From a virus, in the IMG/VR virus record IMGVR_UViG_3300045051_000365, positions 1 to 64,000 of that record: 64,000 nt of DNA; one strand, 5' to 3'. Below the pieces are notes generated by a model, which made no database searches, was not told the origin of the DNA, and was given only the letters and a program-made list of their open reading frames with translations. The position numbers and the translations under genes are program-made. This document shows, in pieces, positions 5,252 through 40,915 of the stretch. The first letter of the stretch is position 1, and each line of letters starts with the position of its first letter.

Positions 5252-6427
5252 ATGACACTAACCCTACTCAGTCCGGGACAGTTGACGGCCGCCACGATTT
5301 TTTCGGGAGGCGGCGGCGCGGATGCCGCTCTAAGAAAGCTCGGATTCAAGATCGTCGGCGCGTTAGAGCGGGAACCGAAGATCGCCGCGGTCTACCGCGA
5401 GAACTTCGGGGATCATATCGCCGTGGCCGACGCGCTCGGGTTCGACTATCGCCGGTGGGAAGGGATCGATCTGCTTCACGCGTCCCCGGTCTGCAAGGGC
5501 TACTCGAACGCCCGGAGTCGGGAACTCCCCCCGCACCCCGATAATAATGTCGGGTACGCGTGTATCGAAGCTATCGAGGCGATCCGTCCCCGGTGGTTCA
5601 CGCTCGAAAACGTCTCGGATTATCGAAAGTCCGATGTTTATAAGGCGATCCACGCTTGCCTCGAAAAACACGGGTACAGAACTTTTCAGAAAGTGATCAA
5701 CTGCAAGGATCACGGCGTTCCGCAAAACCGGAAGAGGCTTGTACTCGTGGCCTCTCGGGACAATATCGACTATCGATTTCCCGAACCGAAACCCGAGATC
5801 GGGTGGTACGCGGCGATCGAGCATCTTTTACCCGATTGCCCCGAGACAACTTTTGCCGAGTGGCAGAAACGGAGACTGAAAGATTTCGATTTTACCTGTC
5901 TGATTAACGAGGACGGGAAACGCTCTCGGGGAGTCCCCGCGGATGCCCCGTCACCGACCGTAACCGCGTCGGGGTCGGGGGCGAGATTCAAGGCGATCCT
6001 CGTGGATAACAACCGCAAGGCTCTCCGCTATCCCGAGTATCGTCCCGCCCCCGCGATCCGATCCGCCCATCAGGGCGCGCTTCGGGTACTCATGCAACGC
6101 GCCGGGGGGAATAAAGACAGAACGAACCCGAGGGGAGAACACGAACCCGCGCCCACGCTGACGTGCGGGGGAGGACACTCGCACACCCTAGACGTTATCG
6201 AGCTAATCCCGTCCGTCCCGCCCGAATACATCAAGATCGTGAAATTAACGCCCCGTTGCCTCGCCACGCTCTGCACGTTCCCCGCGGATTACCGACTACC
6301 GCCACAAGTCACTCTCGCGACGGAGATTATCGGCAACTGTTTCCCCCCGAACGCTTACGAGGAGATCGTCCGATGTCTATTGGAGAGTACCGAGAATCGA
6401 CTTACCCCGACAAGATCTATCGCGTAG
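5252..6427 (+). CDS. C5-cytosine DNA methyltransferase (conventional motif order)
   Basis: A 391-residue methyltransferase that would transfer a methyl group from S-adenosylmethionine to cytosine C5. The motifs appear in the usual order: I (IFSGGGGADAAL, residues 16-27), IV with the catalytic cysteine C81 in SPVCKGYS, VI (ENV, 119-121), VIII (PQNRKR, 157-162), a recognition region with two P-[ST]-[PL]-T-[VL]-T segments, and X (IIGNCFPP) near the C-terminus. The usual PPC of motif IV is PVC, which should still be active. No restriction enzyme gene is adjacent, so it is probably an orphan protecting phage DNA. Confidence 0.88.
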   Translation: MTLTLLSPGQLTAATIFSGGGGADAALRKLGFKIVGALEREPKIAAVYRENFGDHIAVADALGFDYRRWEGIDLLHASPVCKGYSNARSRELPPHPDNNVGYACIEAIEAIRPRWFTLENVSDYRKSDVYKAIHACLEKHGYRTFQKVINCKDHGVPQNRKRLVLVASRDNIDYRFPEPKPEIGWYAAIEHLLPDCPETTFAEWQKRRLKDFDFTCLINEDGKRSRGVPADAPSPTVTASGSGARFKAILVDNNRKALRYPEYRPAPAIRSAHQGALRVLMQRAGGNKDRTNPRGEHEPAPTLTCGGGHSHTLDVIELIPSVPPEYIKIVKLTPRCLATLCTFPADYRLPPQVTLATEIIGNCFPPNAYEEIVRCLLESTENRLTPTRSIA

Positions 6428-7251: not shown

Positions 7252-7560
7252 ATGAAAGAAACAAAAATCAGCGAGAGAACAGGATTAACTTACACTAGAA
7301 GCCCTGTTTTCGAGGATACACGCCCGAGCTACTACCTAAGCGAACCGCTAACCGCAAAACGAGCGAGGGAGATAGCGTACACGATCCCGGGTATTTACTA
7401 CGCTGTTCGAGCCGTTGACGGGGGAACCGATTTATTTATCGCGGAGAGAAATAGTTTTATTACGAAGCTTGCCGGATACGATCCCGAAACACTCCTAATC
7501 GGATACTGCAAAATCGACGCGAGAGGAAACGAGTACATGGTTGTAGGGGGGAGCTTATGA
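7252..7560 (+). CDS. Hypothetical protein, 102 residues
   Basis: Preceded by GAGAGAG and an ATG at 7252; ends in an ATGA overlap with the helicase gene. It has the order helix (LTAKRAREIAYTIPG), then beta strands (GGTDLFIAE..., GNEYMVVGG). No family recognised. Its position in the replication operon suggests an accessory role, by inference only. Confidence 0.65.
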   Translation: MKETKISERTGLTYTRSPVFEDTRPSYYLSEPLTAKRAREIAYTIPGIYYAVRAVDGGTDLFIAERNSFITKLAGYDPETLLIGYCKIDARGNEYMVVGGSL

Positions 7561-10424
7561 ACCTAACATTATTCCAAGAAACCGAAAAGAACACCCTGAC
7601 AATCTCGTCCCCGACGATCCAACTCCGTCCCGATCAGAAAGCTCTTAAAAAAGAGATTTACGGCAACCTCAGATCGGGATTTAAAAGGATTCTAGCCGTC
7701 GCTCCTTGCGGGTACGGAAAGTGTCTAGCAAAAGATACGCCGATTATTATGTATGACGGTAGCGTGAAGCTATCGCAAAATATCGAGGTAGGGGATATTC
7801 TGATGGGGGATGATAGCAAGCCCCGTCATGTCGATTCGATCTGTAGAGGAAGAGAAACTATGGTAAAGGTAATCCCGAACAAGGGAGAGCCATTTACTTG
7901 CAACCGTAGCCACATTCTTTCGTTAGTTTATAACGGGAGAAGCTATCCGAAATCGGGATGGATCAACGGAGATGTTTACGATTTTTCTATCGATCAGTAC
8001 CTTTCTCTCCCGAAACATATTCAGATCTCGATGTTGCTCTATCGGGTTCCTGTAGAATTCGACAGCAAACCCATCACGATAGATCCCTACTTCCTCGGTA
8101 TCTGGCTAGGAGATGGCAATCACAGGCACACGGATGTCTGTACGTCTAATCCTGTATTGATCGACTATATAAAGAAATACGCCGATCGTTTAGGGATGAA
8201 AGTTTATTCTGATGCAAGGAACGACAACCCGAATTCTCAGCTTCACAGGATCACGATGGGAGAGAAGGGACGAAGAAAGAATTATTTATTGAACATGATG
8301 AGAGACTTAGATCTTGTCCAAAACAAGCATATTCCTCAGAACTATCTAATCAACTCAAGAGAGGTCAGGTTAGAACTTCTCGCCGGACTTCTTGACACGG
8401 ACGGACACTGGCAGATAAAAGGGGGCTACGAGATAGCGCAAAAAAGAAAAGAACTCGCGGATCAAATTGTTTTTCTCGCTCGCTCTCTAGGTTTTTTCAC
8501 AAGCGTGGGAACCAAAGAAGTAAAAGGAGAAACTTACTATCGTGTCAGAATTAGCGGTAATACAGAAACTATCCCGATCAAGACCGAATACAAGAAAACC
8601 CCGAAAGAATACACGGAAAAACAGAAATGCAATGTTTTAAGAACAAATTTCAAGCTAGAGTTTTTGGAGGAAGATAATTATTACGGGTTTACAATCGACG
8701 GAAATCGCCGCTTTCTCTTAGGGGATTTTACCGTAACCCACAATACAGTTCTATTCTGCCAAATGATTTACGACGCGGCGATCAAGAAACAACGTCGCAC
8801 ACTGATCGTCGTGCCGTTCACCTGCTTGATCGAGCAAACGATAGAAGCTCTCGAAAAATTCGGATTAACCGCGGGAATAATAGCGGGAGAGTACAAAGAA
8901 GACCGAACCCGAAAAGTGCAGATCGCCACGACTCAAACACTAGCGAGGCGGGATATTTCATGGTTCGATCCCGAAGTTATTTTTCTCGATGAGTGCCATT
9001 TGTCGGCGTACTCGCTTTGGTTCAGGGGTAATTTTAATAATCTCAAAAACGGCAGACAGACGACCTCGATAAAAGACATTTCTGCCGAACTCGCTACTCT
9101 CGGAATCGCCGTCGAGCGGGAAGGATTGGAATTCGGGTATCGGGTCACTTTCGAGGAAGTGAAAACTAAATTCAAATCCCTCGCCCTTCTCCATCATCCC
9201 GACCACGGGGGAACGAAGGAGAAAATGCAAGAATTAAATTCCGCTTGGGAAATCCTTAGAAAACAGGAACATTTATTTTCGGGGAATGAATTATCGACGG
9301 ATAACCGGATCGTGATCGGACTGACAGCGACCCCGTGGCGATTGTCGAAGCGGGAGGAAATGGGGGACATTTTCGAGACACAAGTTACCGGCCCGACCCC
9401 GAGAGAGATGATCGACCGCGGCGCGCTCGTGGGATGCGTCTACTTCGCTACTAAAGACCAGATCGACACGAAAGGAGTTAAGTCTACCGGCGGTGATTTC
9501 GACGCGGCGGAACTCGAAACCCGTTGTCTTGAGGCGGTACAGTCGATCGTCGGGGAATACAAAAGGCTCGGGCAGGATCGTCCGTTCGTCTGTTTCGCCG
9601 CGGGGAAAGTTCACGCCGCCTCGCTCGCGAAAGAATTCACCGATCGGGGGATTCCCGTCGCCACGATCACCGCGGAAACCCCGCACGAGGAAAGACGGGA
9701 AATATTTAAAAACGTGGCGCGACTGAAAACGCGGGGGATTATCAATATCAATACTTGCGGTATCGGGTTCAATCTGCCCGAAATTAGCTGTATTATTCAT
9801 TCCCGCCCTACTAAGAGTACGACCCTTTATATCCAGATGACCGGCCGCGGTCAACGGATCTGCAAGTGGCTCGGGAAAGAGGACTGTATCGTTCTCGATC
9901 AGGCGGGAAACGTGAAGCGTCACGGCTTTATCGAGGACGTGACCTATCCCGTTCTCCGGGGATCTGGAGACATCGAGAAGGGCGAGGCTCCCGTCAAGGA
10001 ATGCGAGAATTGCGGTTGCATGGTTCACGCGTCGGCGCGGGTCTGTCCCGAGTGCGGGTTCGAGTTTATTTCCGAGGGGAAAGAGAGGCGGATAGCGAAC
10101 GAGAAGTTACAGCTTTTAGTCTCGGACGAGGATAAAAAAATCTATTACGCCTATCGGGAAGCGCGGCGGGAAGCGTATAAAAAAGGGAAGAAGCCCGAAG
10201 CCGCTAGGTTCGATGTTGCTAGGATCTATAAATTAACGGATTGGTGGCCAAAGAAGTTCTGGAAGCTTCACGCGGTATTCGGGGAGAAGTATACTGAAGA
10301 CAACGTGAAAAGTTATCAAGATTATTTGAATCGTTGTTGCGGCGGTATCGATAATCAAAAATGGGTAGAAAGCAAAATGCGCGAGGAGTTCGGGGATGAC
10401 TACGGCGAGAATACTGGGAAGTAA
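7557..10424 (+). CDS. SF2 DNA helicase split by an intein and carrying a J-domain-like insert
   Basis: A 955-residue precursor. After splicing out residues 56-396, Walker A becomes PCGYGKTVL. DEAH-type motif II is DECH (478-481), motif III is TATP (590-593) and motif VI is QMTGRGQR (760-767). A zinc ribbon follows (C816, C819, C830, C833). Between motifs II and III lies an insert of about 100 residues whose end (about 530-570) looks like a J domain: FKSLALLHHPDHGG with an HPD triad at 547-549, then a helix ending SAWEIL. J domains normally recruit Hsp70/DnaK. The helicase presumably acts in replication or recombination of phage DNA. The mature enzyme would be 614 residues. Confidence 0.88.
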   Translation: MNLTLFQETEKNTLTISSPTIQLRPDQKALKKEIYGNLRSGFKRILAVAPCGYGKCLAKDTPIIMYDGSVKLSQNIEVGDILMGDDSKPRHVDSICRGRETMVKVIPNKGEPFTCNRSHILSLVYNGRSYPKSGWINGDVYDFSIDQYLSLPKHIQISMLLYRVPVEFDSKPITIDPYFLGIWLGDGNHRHTDVCTSNPVLIDYIKKYADRLGMKVYSDARNDNPNSQLHRITMGEKGRRKNYLLNMMRDLDLVQNKHIPQNYLINSREVRLELLAGLLDTDGHWQIKGGYEIAQKRKELADQIVFLARSLGFFTSVGTKEVKGETYYRVRISGNTETIPIKTEYKKTPKEYTEKQKCNVLRTNFKLEFLEEDNYYGFTIDGNRRFLLGDFTVTHNTVLFCQMIYDAAIKKQRRTLIVVPFTCLIEQTIEALEKFGLTAGIIAGEYKEDRTRKVQIATTQTLARRDISWFDPEVIFLDECHLSAYSLWFRGNFNNLKNGRQTTSIKDISAELATLGIAVEREGLEFGYRVTFEEVKTKFKSLALLHHPDHGGTKEKMQELNSAWEILRKQEHLFSGNELSTDNRIVIGLTATPWRLSKREEMGDIFETQVTGPTPREMIDRGALVGCVYFATKDQIDTKGVKSTGGDFDAAELETRCLEAVQSIVGEYKRLGQDRPFVCFAAGKVHAASLAKEFTDRGIPVATITAETPHEERREIFKNVARLKTRGIININTCGIGFNLPEISCIIHSRPTKSTTLYIQMTGRGQRICKWLGKEDCIVLDQAGNVKRHGFIEDVTYPVLRGSGDIEKGEAPVKECENCGCMVHASARVCPECGFEFISEGKERRIANEKLQLLVSDEDKKIYYAYREARREAYKKGKKPEAARFDVARIYKLTDWWPKKFWKLHAVFGEKYTEDNVKSYQDYLNRCCGGIDNQKWVESKMREEFGDDYGENTGK
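7722..8744 (+). other. Intein with LAGLIDADG endonuclease domain, in helicase Walker A
   Basis: Residues 56-396 of the helicase precursor (341 aa). It begins with Cys (CLAKDTPIIMYDG) and ends THN before Thr +1, so splicing chemistry is complete. The block-B region reads FTCNRSH, so the usual Thr-x-x-His is altered to Asn-Arg-Ser-His, but the His is kept. Two dodecapeptides, FLGIWLGDG and LLAGLLDTDG, mark a homing endonuclease. Insertion right after the Walker A Lys (APCGYGK) is typical, since that site is conserved and lethal if not spliced. Confidence 0.92.
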
Positions 10425-28184: not shown

Positions 28185-29000
28185 ATGACAGCAACAATTC
28201 TTGACATTAAATTAACGCCTTTTCTAAAGTACACGGGCGGGAAAACCCGACTTCTCCCCGAACTGCTTCCCCGCGTTCCGGGGGGATTTACCCGCTTAAT
28301 TAGTCCTTTCTTCGGGGGCGGCGCGCTAGAGTTAGCTATCGCCCCGAAAAAAGCGATACTCGCCGACGCTAATCCCGAATTAATCAACGCCTTGCAAGTG
28401 ATTCGGGATTTCCCCTACACGCTGATCGAGTATCTATCCCATCACGCGTACAGCCCCGAATACTATCTAGATCTACGGGGCAAAAGAACGACCGATCCTG
28501 TTAAAAGAGCGTCCCGCTATATCTACCTAAGTAAGTGCGGATTTAACGGGGTACAGAGAACGAATAAAAAGGGAGAGAATAACGTCCCGTTCGGAAAACA
28601 CAAGAGTCGTCCCGATTGGGTTCAAAGAGACAAGATTCTCGCTATTTCTAGATACTTGAACAAAAACGAGATCGAGATCGCTAATTCCGATTTCGAGGCG
28701 ATTATCGATTGTTCTACGGAAGGGGATTTTCTCTATCTCGATCCCCCGTACCACGGAACCCATACCGCTTACGTCGCCGCGGGGTTCACAGAAAAAGATC
28801 AGATCCGACTTAAAGAAACGGTGAATCGGGCTAATAACCGCGGGTCTAAGTTCCTGCTATCGAGTTCCGATACGGATTTTATTCGCTCGCTCTGGCAGGA
28901 CTACAAAATCGAGGAGGTGACAGTAAGGCGATCGGTTTCCCGCGACGCGTCCACGCGGGGAGAGGTGACGGAATTGTTAATTAGTAATTATAGGATCTAG
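28185..29000 (+). CDS. dam: Dam-type N6-adenine DNA methyltransferase
   Basis: A 271-residue enzyme. Motif X is LKYTGGKTRLLPELL, motif I is SPFFGGGALELAI, and the catalytic motif IV is LDPPYHGT. The order X-I-...-IV marks the alpha group, as in Dam. SKCGFNGVQRTNKKGENNVPFG between them is the expected recognition segment. Target is presumably GATC, which is extremely frequent here. No restriction partner is adjacent. The product should shield phage DNA from host GATC-cutting enzymes or control its own transcription. Confidence 0.88.
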   Translation: MTATILDIKLTPFLKYTGGKTRLLPELLPRVPGGFTRLISPFFGGGALELAIAPKKAILADANPELINALQVIRDFPYTLIEYLSHHAYSPEYYLDLRGKRTTDPVKRASRYIYLSKCGFNGVQRTNKKGENNVPFGKHKSRPDWVQRDKILAISRYLNKNEIEIANSDFEAIIDCSTEGDFLYLDPPYHGTHTAYVAAGFTEKDQIRLKETVNRANNRGSKFLLSSSDTDFIRSLWQDYKIEEVTVRRSVSRDASTRGEVTELLISNYRI

Positions 29001-34962: not shown

Positions 34963-36546
34963 CTATCTCCCGTATCCCCTCGGCAATCCGCCCCTAAACT
35001 CGTTCACGGGGGTAGAGGATACAATCGGGGTCGCGGACTCCTCAGATCCCCCGAAAAATTCATTTTCAAGCGAGTAGAACGCGCCGGATAGAGAATCGAC
35101 AATATCGTTTACCGGCGGCGGTTTCTTGTTCCCGTCAAAACTCTGACACGCGTTCAAGAAACGGGTATTCCAGACAGCATCGCGGAGTAGATAGATCTGC
35201 CCTCTACTGGCCGCCGTGGCCGCGGGTATCGATCGGGTGAGTTTATCCCCTTGCGGTTTGATCGCCGCTACATCGTGATTCGGGTGATACTCGCGTATTA
35301 CATTGGTGATCGTGTTTTCCACGAATTTGCCGCTCGATCCGCCCTCCTCTTCCCACCGAACCGCGACGCTCTTGCCGTCTATCCCCGCGGTATTTTTCAA
35401 CATCAATTCAACCTCGCCGACTTTCTTCTGCTCGCATAGGTTATCGGCGACCACGTACACGAATTCCCGTACCTCTTTCCCGTCCGATAGTACGGACTTG
35501 ATACGCTCGTATTTATAGACGAGGGTTCCGGACGTGTAGCAGTGATAATCCTCCGCGTTCTCTTTCGCCGTGGCCGCCAGATCCCAAAAGCGAACTTTCC
35601 CGAGTAATTTCCAGTCCGCGGGGATATTATCGATAACGTGAAACCACGTCCGATCGAAGACGGAACCGTTTTCATACTTAATCTTCCAGTTGCCGTATAA
35701 AAGGCGTTCTCTCTCTACCGGGTGCAACGCTTCAAGGTTCGCGATATATTCGGGGTTAGTCTTTAGAAAAATCGGATTATCGTAGATCGTCGCGTTGATA
35801 AAGGTAAAGCTTTTCGGGCTAGACTTCGGGAATCGCGCGATCAGTTCGTCCTCGGTATCGCCCCAGACTAAAGACCCCCCCGATCGCACGAAGTAACGGA
35901 TTACCCCGCAACGATCCTCGATCGGGTATCCCGTTCTAGGGTCGATCCACCAATCGATCATTCCCGCGACCCACGAATCAGCGTCCGGGTTCATTGTTGC
36001 CCTAACTTTCGGCTTAATTCCTGACATCGATCGGTTACGGGATAGCAAATACCAGAACGCCTCGCCGTCATCGTCCCAATGAGTTAACTCATCCCAACAG
36101 ATTAAATTTACCTGCGCTCCCTGCCAAGCGAAAATATCTTTCCGATGCTGTAGATACCGGAAAGATATTTTCGCTCCCGATGGAAATTTCCAGTCGAACG
36201 GCTTTGTAATTAATTTTCCTCCTAGATCTCGGTAGATTAATTGTGATTCATCTGCTAGACCACCGGGGTTTGTTATCTGACTATAGGATATTCGGAAGAT
36301 CACCGCGTTAAAAAGCGGGTTATAGATAAACTCTTTTCGAGCGCAATAGGCGAGAAGATTTCTTGATTTTCCGGAGCCGGCCGCACCGCCGAAAAATACT
36401 ATATCCGCATCGGAATTAAAGAATATAGTTTGTTTTCCGGGTTGTGGCTCGGGATACCTGTAATCCGTCCTAGTCGAAAAGCGAGAGCTGTTTTCCTGTA
36501 CGCGATATAGGTTTTTGGGGCTGATTTTTTGTCTGTTTTTTAGCAT
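34963..36546 (-). CDS. terL: Terminase large subunit
   Basis: A 527-residue DNA packaging motor. Walker A is FFGGAAGSGKS (about 51-61), Walker B is LICWDELTHW (148-157, D152/E153), the coupling-like RATMNP follows, and the nuclease domain starts at KVRFWDLAATAKENAEDYHCY with its second acidic site near DIVDSLSGAFYSL. The match is to Terminase_6-type proteins. The gene is opposite to portal, unusual for packaging genes. Its start lies 77 bases inside the upstream GIY-YIG gene and has no clear ribosome binding site, so the exact N-terminus is uncertain. Confidence 0.88.
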   Translation of the reverse strand: MLKNRQKISPKNLYRVQENSSRFSTRTDYRYPEPQPGKQTIFFNSDADIVFFGGAAGSGKSRNLLAYCARKEFIYNPLFNAVIFRISYSQITNPGGLADESQLIYRDLGGKLITKPFDWKFPSGAKISFRYLQHRKDIFAWQGAQVNLICWDELTHWDDDGEAFWYLLSRNRSMSGIKPKVRATMNPDADSWVAGMIDWWIDPRTGYPIEDRCGVIRYFVRSGGSLVWGDTEDELIARFPKSSPKSFTFINATIYDNPIFLKTNPEYIANLEALHPVERERLLYGNWKIKYENGSVFDRTWFHVIDNIPADWKLLGKVRFWDLAATAKENAEDYHCYTSGTLVYKYERIKSVLSDGKEVREFVYVVADNLCEQKKVGEVELMLKNTAGIDGKSVAVRWEEEGGSSGKFVENTITNVIREYHPNHDVAAIKPQGDKLTRSIPAATAASRGQIYLLRDAVWNTRFLNACQSFDGNKKPPPVNDIVDSLSGAFYSLENEFFGGSEESATPIVSSTPVNEFRGGLPRGYGR

Positions 36547-37282
36547 TGAACGTTAGCGATCGGGTTATTTTTGCTTTCTCTAGAACTTCTGGCTCGTGCA
36601 TCGCTTTAATAGCGTTCCAACAAACCTCGCCTTTTTTTCTTTTCCCATTATTCCCCGTTCTTTCGGCATAAGATGCAATTCCCCGTTCCCGCCTCGCTCT
36701 AGCGATCGTTCTTTTGCTTAAGCCAAATCTTTCCCCGATCTTATAATCTGGTTCGGTTCCGAGAAGATCGATAATTTCCTGACTCAATTCTATTTTATTC
36801 CATCCTCCCATCGGGGGCGGGATAGGTTTTTTTAGATTGCCACAAGGCGAAATTCCTCGGATCGTTCGCTGGTAGTTTACAGTTTTTGTCGAACATCCGA
36901 GTTTTTTCGCTAGTTTATTATCTGGCATTGTGCCTAGTAGATACTCGTATTCTTCCCATTCTAGGCTCGCGTTGTTTCCCGATCCCCCGTGTCCCGCGCT
37001 ACCCGTATTAGTCAGATCGAAATATTTCCCGTACTCGATCATCCATCGCTTTTCCGTCTCGATCGCTTTTTCTTTTTCTACCGCATCGATTTCGATAATT
37101 ATCGGACGATACCCTTTTTCCAGAATTTCTTTAATTTTTAATGCCTTTCGAGTATTTTTCTTTTTTCCGTCTCGAATATGATTATTCAGGCGATGCGTTA
37201 GTCTCATCGTGGTTCTACCCACGTAGAACGGGATACACTCGATCGGATCGATTAATATGTAAATTCGTGTTAAACTCTGCAT
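36470..37282 (-). CDS. GIY-YIG homing endonuclease
   Basis: A 270-residue protein. The nuclease domain is at the N-terminus: IYILIDPIECIPFYVGRT (Y...YVG), Arg in MRLTHRLNNHI, and Glu in IETEKRWMIEYG. Two helix-turn-helix-like repeats follow: LGTMPDNKLAKKLGCSTKTV and LGTEPDYKIGERFGLSKRTI. Start 37282 has GGGAGTAGG upstream. The 3' end overlaps the terminase gene, a common situation for a homing endonuclease that targets or protects its neighbour. Confidence 0.85.
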   Translation of the reverse strand: MQSLTRIYILIDPIECIPFYVGRTTMRLTHRLNNHIRDGKKKNTRKALKIKEILEKGYRPIIIEIDAVEKEKAIETEKRWMIEYGKYFDLTNTGSAGHGGSGNNASLEWEEYEYLLGTMPDNKLAKKLGCSTKTVNYQRTIRGISPCGNLKKPIPPPMGGWNKIELSQEIIDLLGTEPDYKIGERFGLSKRTIARARRERGIASYAERTGNNGKRKKGEVCWNAIKAMHEPEVLEKAKITRSLTFNAKKQTKNQPQKPISRTGKQLSLFD

Positions 37283-37311
37283 GGTTGACCTACTCCCATA
37301 GGTTAACAAAC

Positions 37312-37343
37312 AAACCGATGAGATCGTCACATCTCATCGGTTT
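37312..37343 (-). terminator. Terminator upstream of the GIY-YIG gene
   Basis: Stem of 13 bp, AAACCGATGAGAT / ATCTCATCGGTTT, with a six-base loop. On the minus strand it is followed by GTTTGTTTG. It ends the small-gene reverse operon, so the GIY-YIG gene has to be read through or have its own promoter in 37283-37311. The stretch 37344-37433 holds no gene. Confidence 0.75.
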
Positions 37344-39275: not shown

Positions 39276-39884
39276 ATGACAGATAAATCCGATAAGTTAT
39301 CGATCGAGTATCGCCGTCTCTCCGATCTCGTTCCACTGAAAAGTAATAGCAAAAAACACGCGACCGAGAACACGATCGCTCTTATCCTAGAGTTCGGTTT
39401 TAAAGACCCGATCGGCATCGATCCGAGCTTAAACGGCGGAAAAGGCGGAATTACCGAAGGACACGATCGACGTGCCGCATTATTAGAGATTAAAAAACGC
39501 GATATTCCCGCGCCTCGGGGAATTATCCTCGATAAAGACGGAGAATGGATGGTTCCTGTTTTAATCGGGATACATTTAGAATCTGAACCGAAAGCGATTA
39601 AATACTCAGTCCTACACAATCACAGTACAATCCGGGGCGCGGGACTCGATCCGATCGATGAACTGAAACTATTCGATCGGGATCTGTTACTCGAACAAGC
39701 GGAATATCTCGATACTCACGGGGAAGACCTCGGGGCGATCGGGGATTTAAACACGATTCTCGAAACGTTAAACGCGGGAGACGGGGAAAGCGATGAAGAA
39801 ATTCCCGACGATAACCGCAATATAGACGAGGAAAGTTTAGGCGAGACGAAACACGAATGCCCTAACTGTAAATTCCGGTGGTAA
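39276..39884 (+). CDS. ParB/Srx-like nuclease-domain protein
   Basis: A 202-residue protein. Residues about 8-110 carry the ParB-N fold: IEYRRLSDLVPLKSNSKKH, GFKDPIGID, ITEGHDRRAALLEIKK, then VLIGIHLESEPKAIKY. This module is common beside phage methyltransferases. The C-terminal part is acidic and ends in a CPNCKFRW knuckle. Its stop overlaps the AAGGA ribosome binding site of the methyltransferase gene, so the two probably work together. Confidence 0.78.
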   Translation: MTDKSDKLSIEYRRLSDLVPLKSNSKKHATENTIALILEFGFKDPIGIDPSLNGGKGGITEGHDRRAALLEIKKRDIPAPRGIILDKDGEWMVPVLIGIHLESEPKAIKYSVLHNHSTIRGAGLDPIDELKLFDRDLLLEQAEYLDTHGEDLGAIGDLNTILETLNAGDGESDEEIPDDNRNIDEESLGETKHECPNCKFRW

Positions 39885-39889
39885 GGACT

Positions 39890-40915
39890 ATGAGTGAATG
39901 GACGTTTCACCCGCGACCACAAACGAAACCTGTAACGGTAAGAGAAGCGTTCGCGGGATTGGACGAAAACGAACCCTGCCCGATCGCTATACCCGAATGG
40001 ATGCGGAAAGTAGCGGGCGAGATGGTAGCCGGGGATTTTAACAGCGATCGGATCAAGCCGATCATCGCGAAGTACAAAAATGGAAAAACGGGCGGTTTTA
40101 TGGCTATTAAGCTGTTATCGTGGGACAAACCATCTTGTACCTTAATTAAATTTAAAAATTGGGAAGCGGGCGGCATAATTCACCCGAACCGAAAGCGATT
40201 CGTTAACGAGCGGGAACTAGCCAGACTCGCGAGCTTTCCCGATGACTTTATATTCCCGCCGTCCCTCGGATTTAAAAACGTTATCGAGCGCGTCGGAAAT
40301 TGCGTACCGCCGTTGCTAATGAAAGCGATCGCCGAAAATTTACGCTTATCCCCGTTCCTACAAGATACCGATCGGCCGACCGTTATCGATACCTTTTCCG
40401 GTTGTGGGGGAAGTTCCCTCGGACTCCATCTCGCGGGATACGATGAACGGTTAGCGGTCGAGTGGGATAACAAGGCGGCCGCGACCTACCGATCGAACTT
40501 TCCCGACGTACCGCTCTATCACGGGGATATAAAAGAACTGTCCCCCGATCGGGCCGTAGAATTATCGGGAGTGAAACCGGGCGACCTCGATCTATTCACC
40601 GGTTCCCCGCCGTGTCAGGGCTTCTCGGTATCCGGTAAGCGCGAACTGCACGACGATCGCAATCAGCTGTTCCGCGAGTATTGCCGGTTACTGGACGCGT
40701 TTAAACCGAAAGCTTTCGTGATGGAAAATGTCAAAGGAATGATCTCCGGACACATGAAACCGATCGCTCTCTCTATATATAGTGAACTCCGATCGTGCGG
40801 TTACGAGGTACGGGGGCAAGTGTTGAACGCTAAATACTACGGGGTTCCTCAATCGCGGGAACGCGTGATCCTAGTCGGGGTTCGGAAAGACCTAGTACAG
40901 AAGCACGATCTATAG
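39890..40915 (+). CDS. Circularly permuted C5-cytosine DNA methyltransferase
   Basis: A 341-residue enzyme with its motifs in a rotated order. The N-terminal part has what normally closes the protein: TVREAFAGL, KPSCTLIKF, ERELARLASFPDDF, and motif X (ERVGNCVPPLL, about 133-143). Then come motif I (VIDTFSGCGGSS, 165-176), motif IV with catalytic C242 (GSPPCQGFS), motif VI (MENV, E279) and motif VIII (GVPQSRERVILVGVRKDL), which ends the protein. All catalytic residues are present. The start at 39890 has AAGGA; 39878 is in frame. Permuted enzymes such as M.BssHII are known but rare. It should methylate phage DNA. Confidence 0.88.
   Translation: MSEWTFHPRPQTKPVTVREAFAGLDENEPCPIAIPEWMRKVAGEMVAGDFNSDRIKPIIAKYKNGKTGGFMAIKLLSWDKPSCTLIKFKNWEAGGIIHPNRKRFVNERELARLASFPDDFIFPPSLGFKNVIERVGNCVPPLLMKAIAENLRLSPFLQDTDRPTVIDTFSGCGGSSLGLHLAGYDERLAVEWDNKAAATYRSNFPDVPLYHGDIKELSPDRAVELSGVKPGDLDLFTGSPPCQGFSVSGKRELHDDRNQLFREYCRLLDAFKPKAFVMENVKGMISGHMKPIALSIYSELRSCGYEVRGQVLNAKYYGVPQSRERVILVGVRKDLVQKHDL

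Follow-up and report, generated by a model that had tools for sequence, protein, structure and literature searches.

A circularly permuted phage cytosine methyltransferase, its ParB-like partner and their two-ended relatives

How the topology of a protein chain can change in a functional enzyme is an old question, and for DNA methyltransferases a duplication model is backed by laboratory evolution. The question is raised again by a stretch of virus DNA of 64,000 nucleotides (the window; positions 1 to 64,000 of the 73.2-kb IMG/VR record IMGVR_UViG_3300045051_000365), in which the first-pass annotation placed a circularly permuted C5-cytosine methyltransferase, coupled to a ParB-like protein, at 39276-40915. 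Is the motif order truly swapped in an intact enzyme, and how was it reached?

The methyltransferase (345 aa; 39878..40915, plus strand like all features of the locus described below, GTG start) is identified by PF00145, structure matches and its predicted fold. In a Pfam scan it matches PF00145 with an E-value of 2.9e-66, split in two stretches. In phmmer comparisons with canonical structures, residues 166-342 align with the N-terminal part of CmoX (8yf3) and residues 59-155 with its C-terminal part, and residues 169-339 and 107-156 align in the same way with the N- and C-terminal parts of M.HaeIII. The order in the chain is target recognition domain (TRD), IX, X, linker and I to VIII, with motif X before motif I in one polypeptide, which confirms the swapped order.

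Alignment with rotated canonical relatives assigns residues 1-105 (39878..40192) to an N-terminal target recognition region that starts right after the motif VIII end of these relatives (FHPRPQTKPVTVREAF). Motif IX (residues 107-126, RFVNERELARLASFPDDFIF, 40196..40255) and motif X (residues 136-156, IERVGNCVPPLLMKAIAENLR, 40283..40345) were located by structure matches and alignment. They are joined to the catalytic core by the X-to-I linker LSPFLQDTDR (residues 157-166, 40346..40375), the fusion point of the permutation. The core with motifs I-VIII (residues 167-345, 40376..40912), delimited by PF00145, structure matches and alignment, comprises motif I TVIDTFSGCGG (168-178), motif IV GSPPCQGFS with the nucleophile Cys246 (40601..40627, by alignment), motif VI MENV (Glu283) and motif VIII VPQSRERVILVGVR (40844..40885, by alignment) with QSRERV at 325-330; the chain ends 9 residues past motif VIII. 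The diagnostic PC (IV), ENV (VI) and QxRxR (VIII) residues are all present in the alignment, so that the catalytic residues are retained as had been claimed. The termini, proposed to lie exactly in the loop between VIII and IX, indeed moved; alignment with the canonical CL131 and L003 enzymes shows that the chain now begins in the variable stretch separating VIII from the TRD, and the TRD was thus relocated together with IX-X.

The stop-to-stop reading frame opens only two codons ahead of the GTG, which leaves no room for an upstream motif I. A separate ORF supplying the missing half, the finding that would have spoken for a split-subunit enzyme, was not found across the 73.2-kb record, where no other ORF carries TRD-IX-X, and this reading was rejected. 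The permuted order and the ParB-like neighbour are kept at 75-76% identity in other contigs (L001, identical to L002, L020 and the partial L221), and the dN/dS of the gene is 0.07-0.11 by the Nei-Gojobori method, with dS near saturation in pairs that include the window. Judged by this ratio the enzyme is under purifying selection, and the conserved order, low dN/dS and lack of an ORF with the missing half together speak against a chance order or a broken gene. A structural comparison with M.HhaI, suggested in the first-pass annotation, points the same way. The AlphaFold2 model, built from an alignment of 51 unchanged sequences, has a mean pLDDT of 91.7 and a pTM of 0.91, and Foldseek aligns it to CmoX, M.HaeIII and M.HhaI over about 175-200 columns (TM about 0.45-0.48). 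Since Foldseek requires sequence order, a match over half the length is what a permuted chain should give.

Upstream of the methyltransferase, and overlapping it by 7 nt, lies the gene of a 202-aa protein with a ParB_N/Srx fold (39276..39884). The ORF matches PHROG 620 (E 2.1e-15), the profile of its family matches Spo0J in the PDB (6e-11) and also ParB, Noc and sulfiredoxin, and Foldseek relates its AlphaFold2 model (pLDDT 81.6) to ParB and Noc. The proposed partner is therefore real, and the pair looks co-transcribed. ParB_N is detected by Pfam in 12 of 23 family members, the window protein taken alone not being among them, and neither the HTH nor the C-terminal dimerisation domain of partition ParB was detected in the 202-aa protein by a Pfam scan. 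The gene has a dN/dS of 0.06-0.08 (Nei-Gojobori; dS again near saturation in window pairs). The C-terminal tail of its product, HECPNCKFRW (CPxC), is conserved; tails of this type occur across the family, and two cysteines are invariant in the 23-sequence alignment. In several partners, including that of CL131, GNKT-like residues stand in place of the GHxR box, which makes a conserved NTPase cycle doubtful as judged from the sequences. At the junction, the methyltransferase start GTG GTA overlaps the W-stop TGG TAA of the ParB-like gene, and canonical starts (ATG GTA) overlap alike, so that this joint of the operon survived the permutation.

The surrounding record holds phage genes for terminase, tail and helicase functions. 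A second, canonical C5-cytosine methyltransferase (5252-6427, plus strand; PF00145, 7.5e-38) has SPVCKGYS rather than PPC in motif IV, and a D12-class N6-adenine methyltransferase is encoded at 28185-29000 (plus strand; 7.6e-53), so the phage has at least three DNA methyltransferases. The helicase ORF at 7557-10424 (plus strand) matches Hint and LAGLIDADG homing-endonuclease domains in its N-terminal part, probably an intein. An IS605 OrfB/TnpB-like transposase (phrog_506, 4.7e-127) is found at 41-1408 on the minus strand, and a GIY-YIG protein with HTH-like repeats, probably a homing endonuclease, at 36470-37330 (minus strand), overlapping the start of the large terminase gene. The permuted clade adjoins divergent terminase genes. 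A terminase neighbourhood was set aside as a trait of the family, because a terminase match was seen at 14 of the 68 family loci with 3-kb flanks, a lower bound obtained with few queries.

For the family survey, viral and genome contigs were scanned and sorted by two half-profiles. With redundancy removed and a strong core score required, 104 cores were obtained, of which 89 belong to canonical, 11 to two-ended and 4 to permuted enzymes. The two-ended enzymes (L023, L027, L041, L144, L149, L150, L157, L159, L169, L170 and L184), known from metagenome contigs only, carry TRD-IX-X, core and again TRD-IX-X in a single chain, and have an upstream ParB-like gene where the contig allows; L149 has an in-frame stop within the second TRD that could be a sequencing error. 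A second permuted enzyme of the same family is encoded at L329:2951-3895, with no ParB-like gene recognised upstream. In other C5 groups, permuted enzymes were seen in L011, L014, L016, L233 and L234, which include Thermus phage phiLo, gut contigs and a Vibrio tectivirus-like phage, some of them with a later breakpoint, which leaves part of the variable region at the C-terminus. At L227:3086-5272, one ORF of 728 aa encodes an intact tandem dimer, core-module-core-module, in which two copies of a canonical methyltransferase from a different C5 group are fused.

A ParB-like ORF lies directly upstream in 101 of the 114 family records (81 canonical, 11 two-ended, 9 permuted), some of which represent the same contig. 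The spacing in these 101 ranges from a 161-nt overlap to a 30-nt gap, overlap lengths depending on the choice of start codon. Of the 13 remaining records, some begin close to the edge of their contig, and in L170 a ParB-like ORF lies at a greater distance. The pair is thus old and general: canonical L003, for example, has the gene directly upstream. A close described parallel is Aphanizomenon phage vB_AphaS-CL131, in which gp003 is 54% identical to the permuted enzyme and the ParB-like gp004, annotated as 'DNA methylase N-4/N-6' and ending in CPNCDFKW, overlaps it by 7 nt; gp003, however, has the canonical motif order. A pairing peculiar to the permuted enzyme, as the first reading had implied, was consequently rejected, since about 100 related phage records, most of them canonical, share it, and 1,660 ParBc genes, of a function unknown there, have been reported near CmoX-like genes (PMC12783734). 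Fusions of phage ParB-fold domains to DNA methyltransferases and NTP binding by several ParB-fold proteins have also been described (PMC12704722).

In a tree of the core (motifs I-VIII), the window enzyme groups with L001 and L020 (SH-aLRT 99) in a clade nested within a larger one of 22 rows (SH-aLRT 99), whose remaining members are 18 canonical rows and one two-ended row; the nearest canonical branch is that of CL131 and L032 (87). A further tree showed the same picture. Nesting among canonical relatives with the same operon makes the permutation an event local to the family. L329 is instead the sister of canonical L039 (96). On these supported branches, the permuted state arose at least twice within the ParB-paired family. 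The two-ended rows are scattered over the tree, with 11 changes for 11 rows, at least 3 of them forced, and none is the sister of the permuted clade.

The TRD-IX-X modules tell a separate history. In their tree, the N-modules of two-ended enzymes join the C-modules of canonical enzymes from other phages, three times with a support of 100 (L023 with L152, L041 with L040, and L159 with L192/L199) and at identities of 57-72%. The N- and C-modules of one and the same two-ended enzyme are only 34-47% identical and are not each other's closest relatives, so that a plain duplication of the enzyme's own module is not demonstrated for them. Single forks are weak in such quick trees of short, fast-evolving modules; the mixing of N- and C-modules is their robust point, and suggests that TRD-IX-X units are position-independent specificity modules.

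A possible trace of the path to permutation is found in L170. Immediately after its ParB-like gene stands an eight-codon stub, ATG GTG AAA CCG ACT GTA ATA TCA (MVKPTVIS), the exact start of the canonical neighbours L202, L193 and L154. After about 0.5 kb with an antisense ORF, the sequence resumes with the last part of a TRD and motifs IX and X, which a linker of ten residues connects to a second, complete enzyme. The antisense ORF (L170:3588-4124) occupies the place of the first catalytic core; it shows paired CxxC motifs and is HNH-like by eye, with no match in Pfam. Stub, partial TRD-IX-X and full copy together suggest that the first copy no longer has its core, through replacement or loss, and that its TRD-IX-X remained, joined to the second copy. 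The X-to-I linker has ten residues in both L170 (EVPFMKGIEK) and the window clade (LSPFLQDTDR), with PF at the same place, and the N-module of L170 is the one nearest to that of the window clade in the module tree (support 88, on 57 residues). The linkers of other two-ended enzymes are the native N-terminus of their canonical sisters (for example, PLDFIDKPINP in L144 and LDFVNKPINP in canonical L151). As its core is 92% identical to a canonical one while its N-module and linker resemble those of the permuted clade, L170 may also have formed by recombination of the two kinds of enzyme, and the direction of change is not fixed.

L170, the two-ended forms and the L227 dimer fit the forms expected if permutation proceeds via duplication and truncation. 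In that case the gene would first have been duplicated in tandem, or have captured a second TRD-IX-X module, within the ParB-paired phage family, and the permuted order would have emerged once the first core and, after it, the C-terminal module had been lost. It is also conceivable, if rather unlikely, that a single cut-and-paste or genome rearrangement put TRD-IX-X before the core with no duplicated intermediate, the two-ended enzymes being a separate matter. Their scattered positions, away from the permuted clade, and the grouping of their N-modules with C-modules of other phages would agree with this. Yet L170 shares the PF linker and the 22-row core clade and retains the start of a first copy, and the permuted gene itself retains the ancestral overlap of ParB stop and MV start. 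Duplication or capture followed by loss is thus the reading kept here.

The chemistry of the enzyme raises a further alternative. In the PDB, the best match (8yf3, E 1.3e-46) is to CmoX of Synechococcus phage S-B43, a carboxymethyltransferase whose choice of cofactor depends on Arg350, at the position of Asn304 in M.HhaI (PMC12783734). This nearest solved structure shares the SPPC form of motif IV (here GSPPCQGFS), and CmoX genes often lie beside ParBc genes (PMC12783734), so that a C5-carboxymethyltransferase using carboxy-SAM in a first hypermodification step could be imagined. CmoX, however, is of canonical order and has the carboxy-SAM synthase CmoA as partner, whereas the position of Arg350 is held in the permuted enzyme by Asn141 (GNCVPP in motif X; 40298-40300), as it is by Asn in nearly every readable motif X of the family. 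No CmoA match was found in the 73.2-kb record, which may be incomplete, by a search whose positive control found its own source. The carboxymethyltransferase reading was rejected on these two grounds and is very improbable; with Asn141 and no CmoA found, SAM is the predicted cofactor and 5-methylcytosine the predicted product.

Slightly less probable still is that the enzyme serves the modification side of a restriction-modification system and is no anti-restriction orphan. Permuted C5 enzymes of proven activity do belong to such systems (PMC5944983); the flanks here, however, hold terminase, the GIY-YIG/HTH protein near it and DUF genes, with no cognate endonuclease recognised by Pfam in the ORFs scanned (families that Pfam does not recognise being possible), and the ParB pair recurs beside phage genes. 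That the ORF is a decaying, inactive remnant is hardly credible in view of its low dN/dS, intact catalytic residues, confident fold and an order kept in several independent contigs.

The pair would accordingly be viewed as a phage DNA-modification operon. The permuted enzyme, with its specificity domain first, then the linker and core I-VIII, is predicted to be a working SAM-dependent C5-cytosine methyltransferase acting on a short target sequence dictated by its TRD; the methylation would most likely shield phage DNA from host restriction. The ParB_N-fold protein, presumably made from the same message, may act as an accessory that binds DNA and/or nucleotide and helps to load, direct or regulate the methyltransferase. 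The joint modification or anti-restriction role proposed at first remains a plausible suggestion. Taken as a whole, a working permuted methyltransferase in such an operon, with a ParB-like accessory and permuted via duplication or capture and subsequent losses, is what we consider probable. The sequences themselves show the motif order, the conserved catalytic residues, the selection, the synteny, the existence of two-ended relatives and the position of the enzyme among canonical ones; methylation activity, target, anti-restriction role, ParB function and the direction of the evolutionary steps are inferred.

Permuted enzymes of this kind are not as rare as had been stated: 27 natural permuted C5 methyltransferases of one topology were in REBASE by 2018, among them the type H enzymes M.BssHII, M.Alw26I, M2.Eco31I, M.Esp3I and M2.BsaI (PMC5944983), and the unrelated enzymes of phage phiLo and the Vibrio tectivirus-like phage add to these. 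The window enzyme is another type H methyltransferase, with all ten motifs on a single polypeptide, IX-X ahead of I, the N-terminus between VIII and the TRD and the catalytic residues kept; unlike the known examples, as far as their descriptions go, it is a phage orphan paired with a ParB-like gene. For the route, PMC5944983 cites the laboratory evolution of M.HaeIII, which according to that account led through duplicated, partly truncated intermediates to permuted enzymes (Peisajovich, Rockah and Tawfik 2006). The phage forms are natural counterparts of this laboratory path, duplicated or partly truncated relatives being present in this family in the shape of the 11 two-ended forms and the L170 stub.

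What is new lies on the evolutionary side: two-ended C5 methyltransferases with movable TRD-IX-X modules, and a permuted state that arose at least twice. The nearest precedent for the two-ended enzymes is M.phiBssHII, the subject of work by Sethmann (1999) that is cited in PMC8936443. M.phiBssHII and multispecific C5 methyltransferases of Bacillus phages reportedly have an extra N-terminal TRD and more than one target. The TRD alone is reported to stand at the N-terminus there, whereas the two-ended relatives have the whole TRD-IX-X at both ends of one core. We tentatively suggest, at somewhat less than even likelihood, that TRD-IX-X is a mobile cassette usable on either end of the core, the gain of which yields a bispecific enzyme and the loss of either copy a switch of target; an arms race over specificity would then have given rise to permutation incidentally, with the intermediates still extant.

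To our knowledge, few natural series of this kind are confined to a single gene family at a single place in an operon. The two-ended relatives may show how a swap of motif order happens, and since canonical, two-ended and permuted enzymes share partner gene and locus, each step is open to expression and assay. If the two-ended enzymes are bispecific, they would serve directly as tools for methylating two targets, and would clearly exemplify the movement of specificity modules from phage to phage.
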